Source: Acidobacteriaceae bacterium
GTDB taxonomy: Bacteria; Acidobacteriota; Terriglobia; Terriglobales; Acidobacteriaceae
Length of the DNA stretch: 64,000 bases
Assembly (NCBI GenBank): GCA_003134995.1
Contig: PLDC01000005.1
Span: 248,001-312,000 of the forward strand
Direction of reading: 5' to 3'
This document shows positions 1-4,169 of this stretch, in pieces (position 1 is the first letter of the stretch; each line of letters starts with the position of its first letter). Position numbers and translations under genes: made by a program. The notes under the pieces are model-generated. The model searched no databases. It saw only the letters and a program-made list of their open reading frames with translations, and was not told the DNA's origin.

Positions 1-326
1 GTGGCAAAGAGCGTGTTGTGGCGGGATTCGGGGCGGAACAGGGTACGGATAAAGCCGTTCGCCGGTTCGAGGGCGACAATGTGTCCCGAGATGAGATGGT
101 CGATATCGCGAACCGAATGCAGGAGCGGCGCGGAGAATGGTCGGCCATTGACTTCCTGTTTGACGATGACGGCCGCGTATCCGCGAACATCGTCCGCGCG
201 TCCGTCGAGCGACGGCAAGACCAGCGCGGCGTCCTTCCTTTCGGATGCTGGAATTGGCTCCGTCGTGATGCGCGCCACAATCGGTTTCCGGAAGCCGCGT
301 GCGCTGCCTGCGGTGTGCAGTCTCAT
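1..326 (-). CDS. hxsC: HxsC, His-Xaa-Ser system radical SAM maturase (N-terminal part, cut by window edge)
   Basis: An open frame on the minus strand starts with ATG at 326 and runs off the left edge (108 codons visible). The ATG overlaps the hxsB stop as ATGA, indicating translational coupling. The visible residues contain a run resembling the pre-cluster region of HxsC: a segment reading IVALEP, then GFIRTLFRP, then SRHNTLF. In the family this precedes the radical SAM cysteine cluster, which would lie outside the window. HxsC is the second radical SAM protein of the His-Xaa-Ser system and presumably acts with HxsB on HxsA. The family call is from recall of the motif and the operon context. 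The plus-strand frames covering this stretch are antisense shadows. Confidence 0.72.
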   Translation of the reverse strand, partial: MRLHTAGSARGFRKPIVARITTEPIPASERKDAALVLPSLDGRADDVRGYAAVIVKQEVNGRPFSAPLLHSVRDIDHLISGHIVALEPANGFIRTLFRPESRHNTLFA

Positions 327-1822
327 TGGGGAAGCCCCGCTCGGAGTTCGGCCAGATTGCGGTCGGTCACCCATGCCCACAGGATATCCTGAACGTCGCG
401 ATCTCCATCGTGCAAGAGTGACATGAGGTGTTCGATGACGCGCATATTCCGCTTGCAAAAGCCGCTCGTTGCTCGGTGGCCGAACATGTCGCGCTGCGTG
501 GCGTGATGATAGACGGGATCGGCTCCGCAGAACGGCTGGAAGGCGCAGTCTGAGCACCCCGGCAACGACTGGTTGCACGCCGCCTGGAGGAGACTCACGA
601 ATGTTGGACCCGTGAATATCTGGTCCCGCGAATGCGTGAGCACGTTGCCCAGCCTGAAGGTGTAATCTCCCATTTCGGCGAGCATCCGGGATTCGTCCGT
701 CGCATGCACGTCTCCGTCGTAGTTGTAGACGAGCACGTTCAGCCCCGCACCGGACGGAGACTGGAGATCAACATAACCGGTTCCGTCAGGTGTAAGGATT
801 TTCTGGAGCAGGATCTTCGTGTAAATCTCGACGAGGTTGTAACCCTTCTTATTCAGTTCAAGAATGTGCCGAAGGCCCGTCCGGTAGAATTCCAGGAACG
901 CATCCATCTGGTAGCCGGTCCGGTGACTGCTTTTGATCGCAAATCCGTATGGGCTGATCGGCCTCAGGAAAATCGTGTGGAATGACTGTCGCACGTATTC
1001 ATCGATGATCTCCGTAGGATGCTGGAGGGAGAGCTGCGTGGTCGTCATGAGGGCGGCGACTTGGCCGTAACCTAACGCACGGCGAGCCCGCTTTATCCCG
1101 TCGATGGCAACCCGGTAACTGTCTCCTTCCGGTCGCGGGCGATTTGCGTTGTGGATGAACTCCGGTCCATCCAGCGAAGTCGAAAGCTTGATCCGCTCCG
1201 TCTTGCAGTAGTCAAGGATGTCGTCGGTCAAGAACGCCAAATTTGAAGTGATGACGATGTCCAGTTCCTTATTGAGTCGGGCAGCGCCCGGCTTCGCGAT
1301 TGAAACGATGTACTTGATTGTGTCAAAGGCTAAGAGCGGCTCTCCTCCCTGGAGTTCGAGCGTGAGATGCGGGGAGGGAGATTGCAGCATCATATCGACC
1401 GCTGCGGCGGCCACGTCCTGCGGCATGTCGAATTCGCCCTTGTTGACCGTCTGTCGCGACACTTGGCAGTAGTGGCAGGAATGATCGCACCGCAGCGTCA
1501 CGACGAAAATGTGCAACTTGGTCGATCCATGTATGAACTCGAATTTGGTCCGGTACTTTGACGCGAGAACATCGAGTAGAGGCGAGGAGTAATCATCATA
1601 GAGGAAATGTTTCGCCTTGAGGGTGGTGTATATCTCGTCGGCGGGGCGCAACGCCCGTCTCACGATTTTCTCGGCGGTGCCGCGAGGCGCGAGCAGGAAT
1701 TCGCCGCATTCGTTGACGAGGATTTCAGTCTGCTTATTGAGGCGATGAAACCGGAACGGCAGGAGACGATAGCTGCCGTTGGAAGACGTGAAATCCGTTA
1801 CGGGTGAGAACGACCTCGCCAC
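323..1822 (-). CDS. hxsB: HxsB, His-Xaa-Ser system radical SAM maturase
   Basis: A 499-residue protein with a radical SAM [4Fe-4S] motif CX3CX2C at Cys112, Cys116 and Cys119 (within RCDHSCHYCQ). It also has a Cys-rich SPASM-like C-terminal region (about residues 413-455, with CNQSLPGCSDC and QPFCGADP). Such proteins use S-adenosylmethionine to generate a radical and modify ribosomal peptides in the cytoplasm. The likely substrate is the His-x-Ser repeat protein encoded two genes upstream. The start is GTG at 1822, preceded by GGGGAGA about 8 bases upstream and 14 bases after the hxsD stop. The length and the N-terminal region before the SAM domain match what I recall of HxsB. The chemistry performed by this family has not, to my knowledge, been established. 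Confidence 0.88.
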   Translation of the reverse strand: MARSFSPVTDFTSSNGSYRLLPFRFHRLNKQTEILVNECGEFLLAPRGTAEKIVRRALRPADEIYTTLKAKHFLYDDYSSPLLDVLASKYRTKFEFIHGSTKLHIFVVTLRCDHSCHYCQVSRQTVNKGEFDMPQDVAAAAVDMMLQSPSPHLTLELQGGEPLLAFDTIKYIVSIAKPGAARLNKELDIVITSNLAFLTDDILDYCKTERIKLSTSLDGPEFIHNANRPRPEGDSYRVAIDGIKRARRALGYGQVAALMTTTQLSLQHPTEIIDEYVRQSFHTIFLRPISPYGFAIKSSHRTGYQMDAFLEFYRTGLRHILELNKKGYNLVEIYTKILLQKILTPDGTGYVDLQSPSGAGLNVLVYNYDGDVHATDESRMLAEMGDYTFRLGNVLTHSRDQIFTGPTFVSLLQAACNQSLPGCSDCAFQPFCGADPVYHHATQRDMFGHRATSGFCKRNMRVIEHLMSLLHDGDRDVQDILWAWVTDRNLAELRAGLPQ

Positions 1823-1836
1823 TGCTTCTGTCTCCC

Positions 1837-2283
1837 CTATTCACCGGACTTATTAGTAGAGATGCTGATCAGATCCCCTGGTTTCGCGCCGCTCTGTGCA
1901 ACGGGGTCCTCGAACGTTCCGGGCGGTGGGTCTTCCAATACCCCGGACTCGGCGAACGCTTTTGCGATAATCAATTCCCGGACCCCGGCAGTTTCCGCTT
2001 GAATCTCTACGCGCAGTTGCGAATCGAGCAGGGCGTCGTAGATGTCGGGCAGCCATTCGTCGATTTTTCTCACGTTCGGTTGGTCGAGCGTCGGGGAAGA
2101 CACGCGCAGCCCAACCGTTACTGCCAGTAACTCGTCCGTCTCGTTCAAATGAAAGTAGAGGTCCCTGCCAAACCAGTAGCACGCTCGGAGAACGGCGGAT
2201 TTTGAATAGACCTTCTTGTCGATTGCAATGGTCGCGGCGGTGTGCTGATCGTTAAACTCGACGTGACCGAATTGCACACTCAT
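1837..2283 (-). CDS. hxsD: HxsD, His-Xaa-Ser system protein
   Basis: A 148-residue soluble protein with no signal peptide or membrane segment. Features of the N-terminal half (a KVYSKSAVLRACYWFGRD segment at about residues 24-41, followed by FHL and later LLDSQLRVEI) resemble HxsD, a small non-enzymatic component found in all His-Xaa-Ser loci. It may serve as a peptide-recognition or scaffold protein for the two radical SAM enzymes, but this is inference. Its ATG overlaps the hxsA stop as ATGA, and hxsB follows after 14 bases, so A, D and B are tightly co-transcribed. The C-terminal tail beyond about residue 105 looks less conserved and may be lineage-specific. Confidence 0.8.
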   Translation of the reverse strand: MSVQFGHVEFNDQHTAATIAIDKKVYSKSAVLRACYWFGRDLYFHLNETDELLAVTVGLRVSSPTLDQPNVRKIDEWLPDIYDALLDSQLRVEIQAETAGVRELIIAKAFAESGVLEDPPPGTFEDPVAQSGAKPGDLISISTNKSGE

Positions 2284-2627
2284 ATCGCCCGGGAAACGTG
2301 CGAAGAATGGGACGAGTGCGAGGAATGTGAAGAATGAGATGAGTGTGAGGCGTGGGACGCGTGCGAGGCGTGGGACGCATGCGAAGAATGGGACGAGTGC
2401 TGCGCGATCATCTTCAATCCATTCATCGTCTTTCTGAGCACCAGTTTCGATGGTAACCGATGTTCGCTGCCGGGCTGGACCACCCGAGAGGTGTTTTCCG
2501 GAGGAACCGGAAGCGTCGGGGAAGCGACTAACGGAGAAGAATTGCTGAAAGCAACGGTGCCGCCTAGCAAAAGCGCCAGCTTCGTGGAGATTCTTCGGAA
2601 AAACGCTCTTAACGTTTGCTCATCCAT
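2280..2627 (-). CDS. hxsA: HxsA, His-Xaa-Ser repeat peptide precursor
   Basis: A 115-residue protein (118 if the GTG at 2636 is used). The ATG at 2627 is preferred because GGGGTG lies a few bases upstream of it. The N-terminal third holds a hydrophobic segment (residues about 17-27) that could be a signal or membrane anchor. The C-terminus is 12 uninterrupted His-x-Ser triplets with x being Ser (7), Ala (4) or Val (1), followed by Arg-Ala-Ile and the stop. This is the hallmark of HxsA, the presumed substrate of HxsB and HxsC. As the first gene of the operon it is positioned to be made in excess over the enzymes. The mature product and its role are unknown. Confidence 0.9.
   Translation of the reverse strand: MDEQTLRAFFRRISTKLALLLGGTVAFSNSSPLVASPTLPVPPENTSRVVQPGSEHRLPSKLVLRKTMNGLKMIAQHSSHSSHASHASHASHASHSSHSSHSSHSSHSSHVSRAI
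2292..2399 (-). repeat. 12 x 9-bp tandem repeat encoding (His-x-Ser)12
   Basis: 108 bases made of twelve 9-bp units, each encoding one His-x-Ser triplet at the 3' end of hxsA. The units differ by a few bases, mainly at the x codon and at third positions. That leaves a near-microsatellite that could expand or contract in frame by slippage. Confidence 0.9.
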
Positions 2628-2636
2628 ATCTATCAC

Positions 2637-2951
2637 CCCGAATGGCCAAACGTTACATGCCTGATGGTCCGCCAGGTCAAGTATCAGGTGTGTTATTGGC
2701 TAGAATATCACCTAGTGCGGCTTATGGACTCCGTATCGATTATTGGTCCTCGGATTAGCACGCTTGCTTACCTTTGATAACGTTTGGATACCTCCAAGAC
2801 AAATAAAGTTGGCACTACACTTGCAGGACGGGAATGTTTGTTTAAGCCAATGTTTATGCTGAAATCAATGTGTAATCGGTCGGATTTACGGCCTGACAAT
2901 GCCGCATTGCCAGCCTTAGATTTATATATCATTGTGCAAATGTTTAAAATA
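2637..2951. other. AT-rich intergenic region between divergent hxsA and integrase genes
   Basis: About 315 bases with visibly lower GC than the flanks and no convincing gene. It must hold the promoters of both the hxs operon (leftward) and the integrase (rightward). The integrase frame stays open through much of it (from 2784), but that stretch has no recognisable domain and no ribosome binding site, so I treat it as non-coding. Confidence 0.5.
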
Positions 2952-4067
2952 ATGGGCACCTACAAACGCGGCAAAACCTACTGGTACAAATTTCAGTGGC
3001 AAGGGAAGAGTATCCGAAAGTCCACCAAGCAGCGCAACGACAAAGTTGCGCGCGATATGGAGAGTGCACACCGCACTTCTTTGGCAAAGGGTGAGGTAGG
3101 AATCAGAGAAAAGAAGCCCGCGCCTCTGCTGAAGGACTTCCTCAAGAATGATTTCCTGCCCTTCGCTCAAACTAGACACAAGTACAAGCCCATGACATTG
3201 CGCTATTATCGACAGGGGTGTGACCTGCTCACCAAGTCCAATCTCGGCGGCCTGCGTCTGGATGAATTTTCCGACCAGCAAGCGCAAGAATTCGCAAGAA
3301 AACACGCTGTGTTGTCGCCTTCTGGAATTAACCGTGGTCTGCGAACATTGCGCCGTTCCCTCAATCTGGCTTTTGAGTGGGCGAAGCTTGAACGGCCCGT
3401 GAAGATCACTCTGGCACCCGGCGAACACCAGCGTGATCGGGTTCTAACTGATACGGAGATCACGAAGTATCTAGACGCCTGTCCGCAACCGTGGAAGGAT
3501 TGTGCGACCTTGATCGTCGATGAGGGATTCCGCCCGTCTGAGGTCTTCGCCCTCGAATGGCAGCATATTCTCCTGCATGATGACGACTCCGGCTTTATTC
3601 AGATCGCAGAAGGCAAGTCCAAAGCCGCAAAGCGTACCCTGCCCATGACTCCTAGAGTGCATGGCGTCCTTTCGGCCCGGTGGGAATCTGCCGGTAAGCC
3701 CGTCGCAGGCTTCCTCTTTCCCAGCGCTGGCAAGAGTGGACACGTCAGTCAGGATGGAACGAAAGACCAGCATAAGAAGGCTCTAGAGAATTCCGGCGTA
3801 GTTGCCTTTGTGCCTTATGTCCTGCGCCACACTGCCTTGACGAACTTGGGAGAGCGGGCTGGGGGTGACGTGTTCGTGCTGGCCCGGATCGCCGGACACT
3901 CAACCATCGCTGTAACACAGCGGTACATCCATCCCCAAGCTGATGCTATTGGCCGCGTTTTCGCCGCTGCACTTCCCAAGGTGGGCACAAAATTGGGCAC
4001 AGCGAGAAAGCCGCGCAAAACGAGAGCGCCAAGAGCAAGCCAGCAAATGCTCCTGAAGTCCGCATAA
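2952..4067 (+). CDS. Tyrosine recombinase / phage-type integrase
   Basis: A 371-residue site-specific recombinase. An N-terminal SAM-like arm/core-binding region (about residues 60-145) precedes the catalytic domain. Catalytic residues are visible: Arg194 in GFRPSEV, a Lys-rich box around residues 222-228, Arg292 in YVLRHT, His316 in AGHST and the nucleophile Tyr325 in TQRYIHP. The first His of the usual HxLRHT box is Tyr here (Tyr289), a variant I associate with other acidobacterial integrases. The start at MGTYKRG was chosen because homologues usually begin this way; the frame is open upstream to 2784 and an ATG also lies at 2940. The gene abuts the 3' end of tRNA-Leu, its likely attachment site. 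Confidence 0.88.
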   Translation: MGTYKRGKTYWYKFQWQGKSIRKSTKQRNDKVARDMESAHRTSLAKGEVGIREKKPAPLLKDFLKNDFLPFAQTRHKYKPMTLRYYRQGCDLLTKSNLGGLRLDEFSDQQAQEFARKHAVLSPSGINRGLRTLRRSLNLAFEWAKLERPVKITLAPGEHQRDRVLTDTEITKYLDACPQPWKDCATLIVDEGFRPSEVFALEWQHILLHDDDSGFIQIAEGKSKAAKRTLPMTPRVHGVLSARWESAGKPVAGFLFPSAGKSGHVSQDGTKDQHKKALENSGVVAFVPYVLRHTALTNLGERAGGDVFVLARIAGHSTIAVTQRYIHPQADAIGRVFAAALPKVGTKLGTARKPRKTRAPRASQQMLLKSA

Positions 4068-4080
4068 ATATTGTGTTTAG

Positions 4081-4169
4081 TGGTGCCGGGAGGGGGAATC
4101 GAACCCCCACAGTCCTTTCGGACCTGCGGATTTTAAGTCCGCTGCGTCTGCCAATTTCGCCATCCCGGC
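4081..4169 (-). tRNA. tRNA-Leu, anticodon UAA
   Basis: An 89-base cloverleaf with an encoded CCA end at 4081. The acceptor arms are GCCGGGA and TCCCGGC, with discriminator A. The anticodon stem is GCGGA/TCCGC around the loop CTTAAAA, giving anticodon TAA (reads UUA). A long variable arm (GGTCC...GGACT region) marks it as a class II tRNA, and the T loop GTTCGATTC is canonical. The 3' end faces the integrase gene and is the presumed attachment core. Confidence 0.96.

Follow-up and report, generated by a model that had tools for sequence, protein, structure and literature searches.

We describe here a His-Xaa-Ser (Hxs) operon, hxsA-D-B-C, at the left edge of a 64,000-nucleotide stretch of DNA from an Acidobacteriaceae bacterium (contig PLDC01000005.1, positions 248,001 to 312,000; the whole stretch is called the window below) and find that, judging from the sequence, it is almost certainly cargo of an 18.8-kb mobile element integrated at a tRNA-Leu gene. 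The operon encodes a short precursor, HxsA, with twelve tandem His-Xaa-Ser units, two radical S-adenosylmethionine (SAM) enzymes, HxsB and HxsC, and a small protein, HxsD. Our overall reading, to which we give a probability of about 0.5, is that HxsA would be cross-linked in the cytoplasm and then exported as an envelope protein, the operon being cargo of the element. With the mobile setting, the exported-looking substrates and no exporter found to recur, a so far open annotation becomes amenable to a few direct tests. The element is delimited by the following features:

2784..4067, plus strand: tyrosine recombinase (integrase) of the element (PF00589, 65 bits)
4081..4169, minus strand: tRNA-Leu (taa), the insertion site
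4081..4138: 58-bp direct repeat forming the right end of the element and the 3' part of the tRNA; exact second copy at window -14766 to -14709 (contig C13:233234-233291)

The second copy of the repeat lies 18,847 bases leftward, which gives the element its size and places the operon just inside one end of the integrated unit. Further genes of the element encode, among others, an ankyrin-repeat protein, a protein weakly similar to mannosyltransferases and several proteins that match nothing in Pfam. Near its left end (L018:12067-14022; L numbers denote fetched loci and G numbers genomes) there are three open reading frames (ORFs) on the minus strand, one with a borderline match to sigma-70 region 4. 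Comparison with possible empty sites showed that the gene order to the right was kept in one of ten stretches (L039, G398), and the left-flank genes beside the tRNA were found in none of the ten. The same tRNA-Leu is split in two other genomes of the genus, with copies 11.7 kb (L047) and 16.4 kb (L046) apart, and the site therefore looks like a recurrent target and a likely insertion hot spot; the window integrase had no tblastn match in these two loci. The G+C content is 53.7% in the island, 56-57% outside it and 56.4% in the hxs genes, values which are uninformative on origin either way. A tyrosine recombinase lies within 2 kb of hxsB in two of the eight genomes with a match, and the chance of two or more such cases within 5 kb is about 0.012, which is weak because one of the cases is the window itself.

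A known defence system was considered for the island and not accepted, after PADLOC had been applied to HxsC, HxsD and eight of the proteins of the island. HxsC had weak matches to viperins in the radical SAM core that they share, the repeats of the ankyrin protein matched PDC-M72A, a candidate system (240.7 bits), and further ankyrin models, and one island protein had a marginal match to PDC-S06; HxsD and the six other island proteins had no PADLOC match.

The window begins inside the operon, which comprises the following features:

2280..2627, minus strand: hxsA, repeat precursor, 115 amino acids (from its reading frame and homologues)
2547..2579, minus strand: hydrophobic N-terminal segment of hxsA, residues 17-27, after FFRRISTK; signal-peptide-like, the most hydrophobic 11-mer of the protein
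2400..2456, minus strand: hxsA leader motif LPSKLVLRKTMNGLKMIAQ, directly ahead of the repeats
2292..2399, minus strand: twelve tandem His-Xaa-Ser codon triplets in hxsA, Xaa being Ser, Ala or Val
1837..2283, minus strand: hxsD, 148 amino acids (TIGR03976, 63.6 bits, cut-off 50)
323..1822, minus strand: hxsB, 499 amino acids, RRE-like N-terminus, radical SAM domain and SPASM-like tail (TIGR03978, structural model and fold matches)
1..326, minus strand: 5' part of hxsC (TIGR03977, 369 bits); the gene extends to window -834 (L002:9166), 386 amino acids in total

A preliminary description of this DNA had recognised the four components in the order A, D, B, C, and they do form a complete and tightly packed set: hxsA and hxsD overlap in ATGA, 14 bases separate hxsD from hxsB, and hxsC starts at window position 326, overlapping the 3' end of hxsB. 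It had also taken hxsC to be cut by the window edge and to encode a second radical SAM enzyme; the remainder, read leftward on the same contig (L002), is intact and has its CX3CX2C motif starting immediately beyond the left edge of the window. The expected match of all four proteins to Hxs profiles was found for HxsB (600.2 bits against TIGR03978, cut-off 370), for HxsC in its full genomic frame (369.1 bits against TIGR03977, cut-off 267.9) and for HxsD, and not for HxsA, which fell below all four of its models (score/cut-off: HxsA 25.2/121.65, HxsA2 33.4/48, HxsA3 21.2/65, HxsA4 39.9/55). Window HxsA is therefore filed under none of them, though they are its best profile matches. The start of hxsA is moved from the GTG at 2636 to the ATG at 2627, which is likelier because GGTGA stands five bases ahead and because P0121, P0122, P0124 and the L014 copy begin there. 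Membership of the locus in the Hxs system is virtually certain, and the interpretation first given to it is supported. That account is extended here by the surrounding mobile element and by indications that the product is exported. At another locus (L021:11252-11887, G352) hxsC ends soon after the GGE motif and is followed by unrelated sequence, as in a decaying copy.

Window HxsA is made up of a basic and hydrophobic N-terminus, a linker, the motif KLVLRK..NGLKMIAQ and the twelve His-Xaa-Ser units. The run of units, consecutive as originally noticed, is beyond chance, as the longest run in 20,000 shuffles of the protein was 4, seen once. Two His codons and four third-position Ser codons are used across the units, a variety which suggests that the amino acids are conserved and that the repeat is not a DNA satellite. 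A protein search (7,990 candidates) returned at least 300 relatives at E 0.001. Among the 120 homologues listed, a leader motif of the same type occurs in 91, the number of units ranges from 4 to 17, and where His residues stand three apart Ser takes the third place in 897 of 898 cases, the middle residue being variable. A 79-amino-acid part of HxsA gave only chance-level matches against plasmid sequences. The protein contains no cysteine and is assigned by these comparisons to a clade of short precursors outside the curated HxsA models; with its simple Ser/Ala repeat it would be a convenient substrate for working out the chemistry. Two tandem HxsA-type genes occur at L020:7755-9044, one with a long C-terminal part without Pfam match.

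In HxsB the cysteines C111/115/118 and C422/425/431/455 are invariant and C415 is nearly so (43 sequences), in keeping with the CX3CX2C motif and the SPASM-like tail first reported for it. In HxsC C112/116/119 (CX3CX2C) and C329/354/357/363 are present in all 15 aligned HxsC, near-copies included. Beyond the SAM cluster HxsC thus has four conserved cysteines and HxsB five. The Pfam scan matched Radical_SAM and Fer4_12 and no SPASM model. As far as sequence can tell, both carry CX3CX2C and auxiliary-cluster cysteines, as do radical SAM/SPASM peptide maturases, the number of iron-sulfur clusters being a deduction from these residues. Residues 22-97 of the HxsB model follow a strand-strand-strand-helix-helix-helix order that is RRE-like. 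The top Foldseek match of the model was CteB (5wgg, E 1.2e-15), and the structure of TigE (8vpo), which we take to be a repeat-peptide cyclopropyl synthase, aligned over residues 13-472; these alignments begin at residue 21 (CteB) and 13 (TigE), and barely probe the stretch before residue 91. The model of HxsD shows a small alpha/beta protein whose long helix is conserved, and the sole chain matched by its sequence was a ribosomal protein (E 0.26). Its assignment as an RRE (winged-helix) is not favoured, as the modelled order of strands and helices differs and none of the matches listed is named as an RRE, though it may still be a distant relative.

That HxsA is exported is probable, on the evidence of the N-termini of 28 HxsA from the fetched loci (near-copies included). 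The most hydrophobic 11-mer begins within the first 41 residues in 25 of the 28 (10.1 expected by position alone), a net positive charge precedes the N-terminal hydrophobic peak in 26, both features coincide in 23, and A-x-A follows the hydrophobic part in 17. Window HxsA has its top 11-mer starting at residue 17 after a net charge of +2. A Tat-type motif, (R/K)R-x-F/L/I/V-L/I, is present in three of the 28, the window protein not among them. Of the 18 long HxsA (190 amino acids or more) scanned with Pfam, 14 exceeded the gathering score of PG_binding_1 (L011, L013, L023, L028, L049, L052, L057, L060, L062, L066, L069, L070, L073 and L074), or 10 of 13 when the Klebsiella/E. coli set and the pair L073/L074 are each counted once. 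The long proteins were also seen to contain the repeats. This suggests, from the relatives, that modified HxsA may often be wall-bound. A wall-binding protein of L025 that had grouped with HxsA was dropped, as it has no His-Xaa-Ser unit. Our search of the open-licence literature found no paper pairing His-Xaa-Ser with peptidoglycan; the link may already be known to the curators of the family.

Companion genes were sought by clustering ORFs of at least 80 amino acids from the element and 38 fetched loci (39 stretches in all), a limit which smaller ORFs and divergent genes would escape. HxsB was found in all 39, HxsC in 35 and HxsD in 25, with five further HxsD from E. coli forming a group of their own; HxsC did not cluster in L014 (contig end), L024, L025 and L060 (where it is annotated). 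The HxsB-like proteins of L023, L024 and L025 are 29% identical to that of the window, those of L024 and L025 fall below the HxsB cut-off, and no HxsC was found in these last two. The wall-binding group covered 12 loci, 11 of its members being HxsA. No group other than Hxs occurred in more than four of the 39 loci, the groups of four being all from E. coli; groups spanning genera reached at most three (e.g., transposases and ABC ATPases of different kinds), and no peptidase or exporter family recurred with hxs in this set. The ABC proteins found near L012, L024 and L028 differ in kind from one another. In four of the five opened E. coli loci (L066, L067, L069, L070) a DUF6119/TIGR04141 gene lies about 20-70 bases after hxsA; it is broken in L066.

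Some neighbours deserve separate mention. Endonuclease_NS and MauG-type proteins occurred in two loci each. In the distant loci L023 (7334-8942) and L073 (11203-12962) the genes after hxsA are, in the same order, one for a MauG-type di-haem peroxidase and a small uncharacterised one; MauG-type enzymes are periplasmic, and the substrate encoded beside them is probably exported. The Endonuclease_NS genes are at L011:7067-8173, 12 bases after hxsC, and L062:5820-6773, and a gene for SNase, a staphylococcal-nuclease homologue of a family unrelated to Endonuclease_NS, is found 15 bases after hxsC at L051:10639-11355. At two unrelated loci the region upstream of hxs contains toxin-antitoxin genes of AbiE type (AbiEii at L014:1853-2776; AbiEi and AbiEii at L049:2962-4873).

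The distribution of Hxs is patchy yet far-flung. The HxsB model at E 1e-60 matched eight of 396 genomes drawn from the phylum of the window, six of them over the cut-off, and a single-sequence scan of genome contigs gave four loci; the HxsB fragment of L014 is 88% identical to that of the window. At the same threshold 339 of 72,556 plasmid records matched, 315 of them from Klebsiella, and two of 50,697 phages, one being a Leptospira phage in which hxsA, D, B and C are consecutive; one scan of IMG/VR gave four loci. The Klebsiella plasmid operon, used as query, had matches in 153 of 5,426 complete E. coli genomes, always in the chromosome, and 138 of these matches span at least 80% of the operon. 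Five of the 153 were opened, two taken from the head of the list and three spread evenly over it: hxs adjoins ssrA, with an integrase, in L067 and L069; stands with an integrase-domain gene and relaxase remains in L066; lies among prophage genes near ihfA in L068; and accompanies a recombinase and a relaxase in L070. When 30 HxsB proteins were placed in a tree, the approximately unbiased (AU) test rejected the grouping of the six from the phylum of the window in one clade (p-AU 2e-139), also when the long-branched G017 was removed (p-AU 3e-91). The Leptospira phage protein falls among Bacteroidota and G075 among Pseudomonadota, some deeper forks being poorly supported. The tree indicates that hxs has been passed between phyla, and the system appears to travel on plasmids, phages and islands.

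The steps that we infer are given in order of falling confidence. HxsB and HxsC would modify His and Ser of the HxsA units in the cytoplasm, reading the leader motif ahead of the repeats, and HxsB would bind this leader, probably through its RRE-like N-terminus. Modified HxsA would then leave through the general export route of the host, led by its own signal-like N-terminus; this route is proposed because the analysis found neither an exporter nor a peptidase family recurring beside the operon. HxsD may be an accessory docking subunit. Each His-Xaa-Ser unit would be closed by a bond between a ring carbon of His and the beta carbon of Ser, giving a three-residue cyclophane and hence a rigid rod. 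The His-Ser cross-link, for which we would put the odds just short of even, is favoured by analogy with Phe-Xaa-Ser (FxsB) and with the cyclophanes which Sugiyama reportedly described in 2022 on His-containing motifs. The product would finally act in the cell envelope to the benefit of the mobile element, with the long relatives anchored on peptidoglycan. An exclusion-like role for the element is an unlikely guess from the mobile setting, and equally speculative is the wider idea of Hxs as an envelope system of mobile elements, in which a stiffened poly-His-Ser rod is exported, fixed to the wall and serves the element, e.g., by excluding phages or rival elements. If true, peptide modification would here yield a structural surface protein and not a released small molecule.

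Several results weigh against a cross-linked and exported HxsA. Outside Hxs, HxsB matches PapB best (95 bits), and anSME and CteB, enzymes of other chemistry, are among its best fold matches, so relatedness does not select its reaction. When hydrophobicity alone was compared with shuffled sequences (at most 2 of 200 shuffles as high), only eight of 27 HxsA and 62 of the 120 listed homologues passed, and for window HxsA three of 200 shuffles were as high. Window HxsA has neither an AxA motif nor a wall-binding domain, and the case for export and an envelope role therefore leans on its relatives; its hydrophobic stretch might be a leader alone. Among the long forms L068 is just below the PG_binding_1 cut-off (22.4 vs 23) and L019, L020 and L063 have no Pfam match. 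Single loci do have peptidase or ABC genes close to hxs, namely L059 (an S8 peptidase), L049 and L012.

One rival explanation is a classical peptide natural product, in which HxsA would lose its leader by cleavage and its modified repeat would be set free to act as a bacteriocin or signal. Precursors as short as about 77-120 amino acids, with a leader-like part and a repeat core, and the RRE-like N-terminus of HxsB are in its favour, but with no peptidase or dedicated exporter family recurring among the 39 stretches, and with wall-binding domains ending 14 of the 18 long HxsA, we regard it as improbable. HxsA might instead remain inside the cell, its hydrophobic N-terminus being a recognition leader for HxsB only. 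The missing AxA site of the window protein, shared with 10 others of the 28, fits this; the peptidoglycan-binding domains of the long forms and the A-x-A of the other 17 make it doubtful. The repeat could also belong to a metal-binding His-rich protein that keeps copper, nickel or zinc bound within the envelope, the enzymes tuning its imidazoles. Twelve evenly spaced His, the MauG-type genes after hxsA in L023 and L073 and the copper binding ascribed to noursin, a crosslinked His peptide, in the relevant part of PMC10206099 argue for such a role. However, no metal transporter, sensor or chaperone family recurred beside hxs in the 39 stretches, and unmodified His repeats already bind metal, which makes two radical SAM enzymes a costly route; we think it unlikely.

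A more serious contender, if clearly below even odds, is a different chemistry on the same residues, be it epimerisation, dehydrogenation, ether bonds or a separate step for each enzyme. The unequal numbers of extra conserved cysteines in HxsB and HxsC (five vs four) and the position of PapB as nearest neighbour of HxsB outside Hxs would suit it, whereas the conserved His points to the ring as a partner, and a thioether in the style of PapB or CteB is excluded because window HxsA lacks cysteine.

The likenesses of the window system are several. CteB, the SCIFF thioether maturase, shares the radical SAM/SPASM fold of HxsB; it bears an RRE and acts on cysteines, targets which are missing from window HxsA. 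The triceptide maturases FxsB, GrrM and YhhB are radical SAM/SPASM enzymes labelled cyclophane-forming by NCBIfam and match HxsB weakly (44-73 bits); FxsB acts on a Phe-Xaa-Ser motif, and we know of no paired HxsC-type enzyme for this group. TigE and TvgB likewise pair a radical SAM enzyme with a short repeated motif, and the TigE fold aligns with the HxsB model; to our knowledge these systems have no HxsC or HxsD partner. TvgB is a repeat-peptide cyclopropyl synthase, and its substrate TvgA has the repeat TVGG, modified on Val, according to the relevant passage of PMC9062424. The Hxs system itself is known and curated as NCBIfam TIGR03976/03977/03978/03979 (Haft and Basu, cited in PMC9062424), and in the passage concerned the precursors with His-Xaa-Ser are said to "putatively rely on" HxsB and HxsC to mature. 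In agreement with the first account, no description of an Hxs product, modification or role was found in the open-licence literature. The window system shares with the known ones HxsB, HxsC and HxsD over their cut-offs in one operon with a His-Xaa-Ser repeat protein, and differs in its short precursor, below all four HxsA models, and in its carriage by a tRNA-Leu element; what is new is thus the mobile setting, the evidence for the envelope and a precursor clade outside the curated models.

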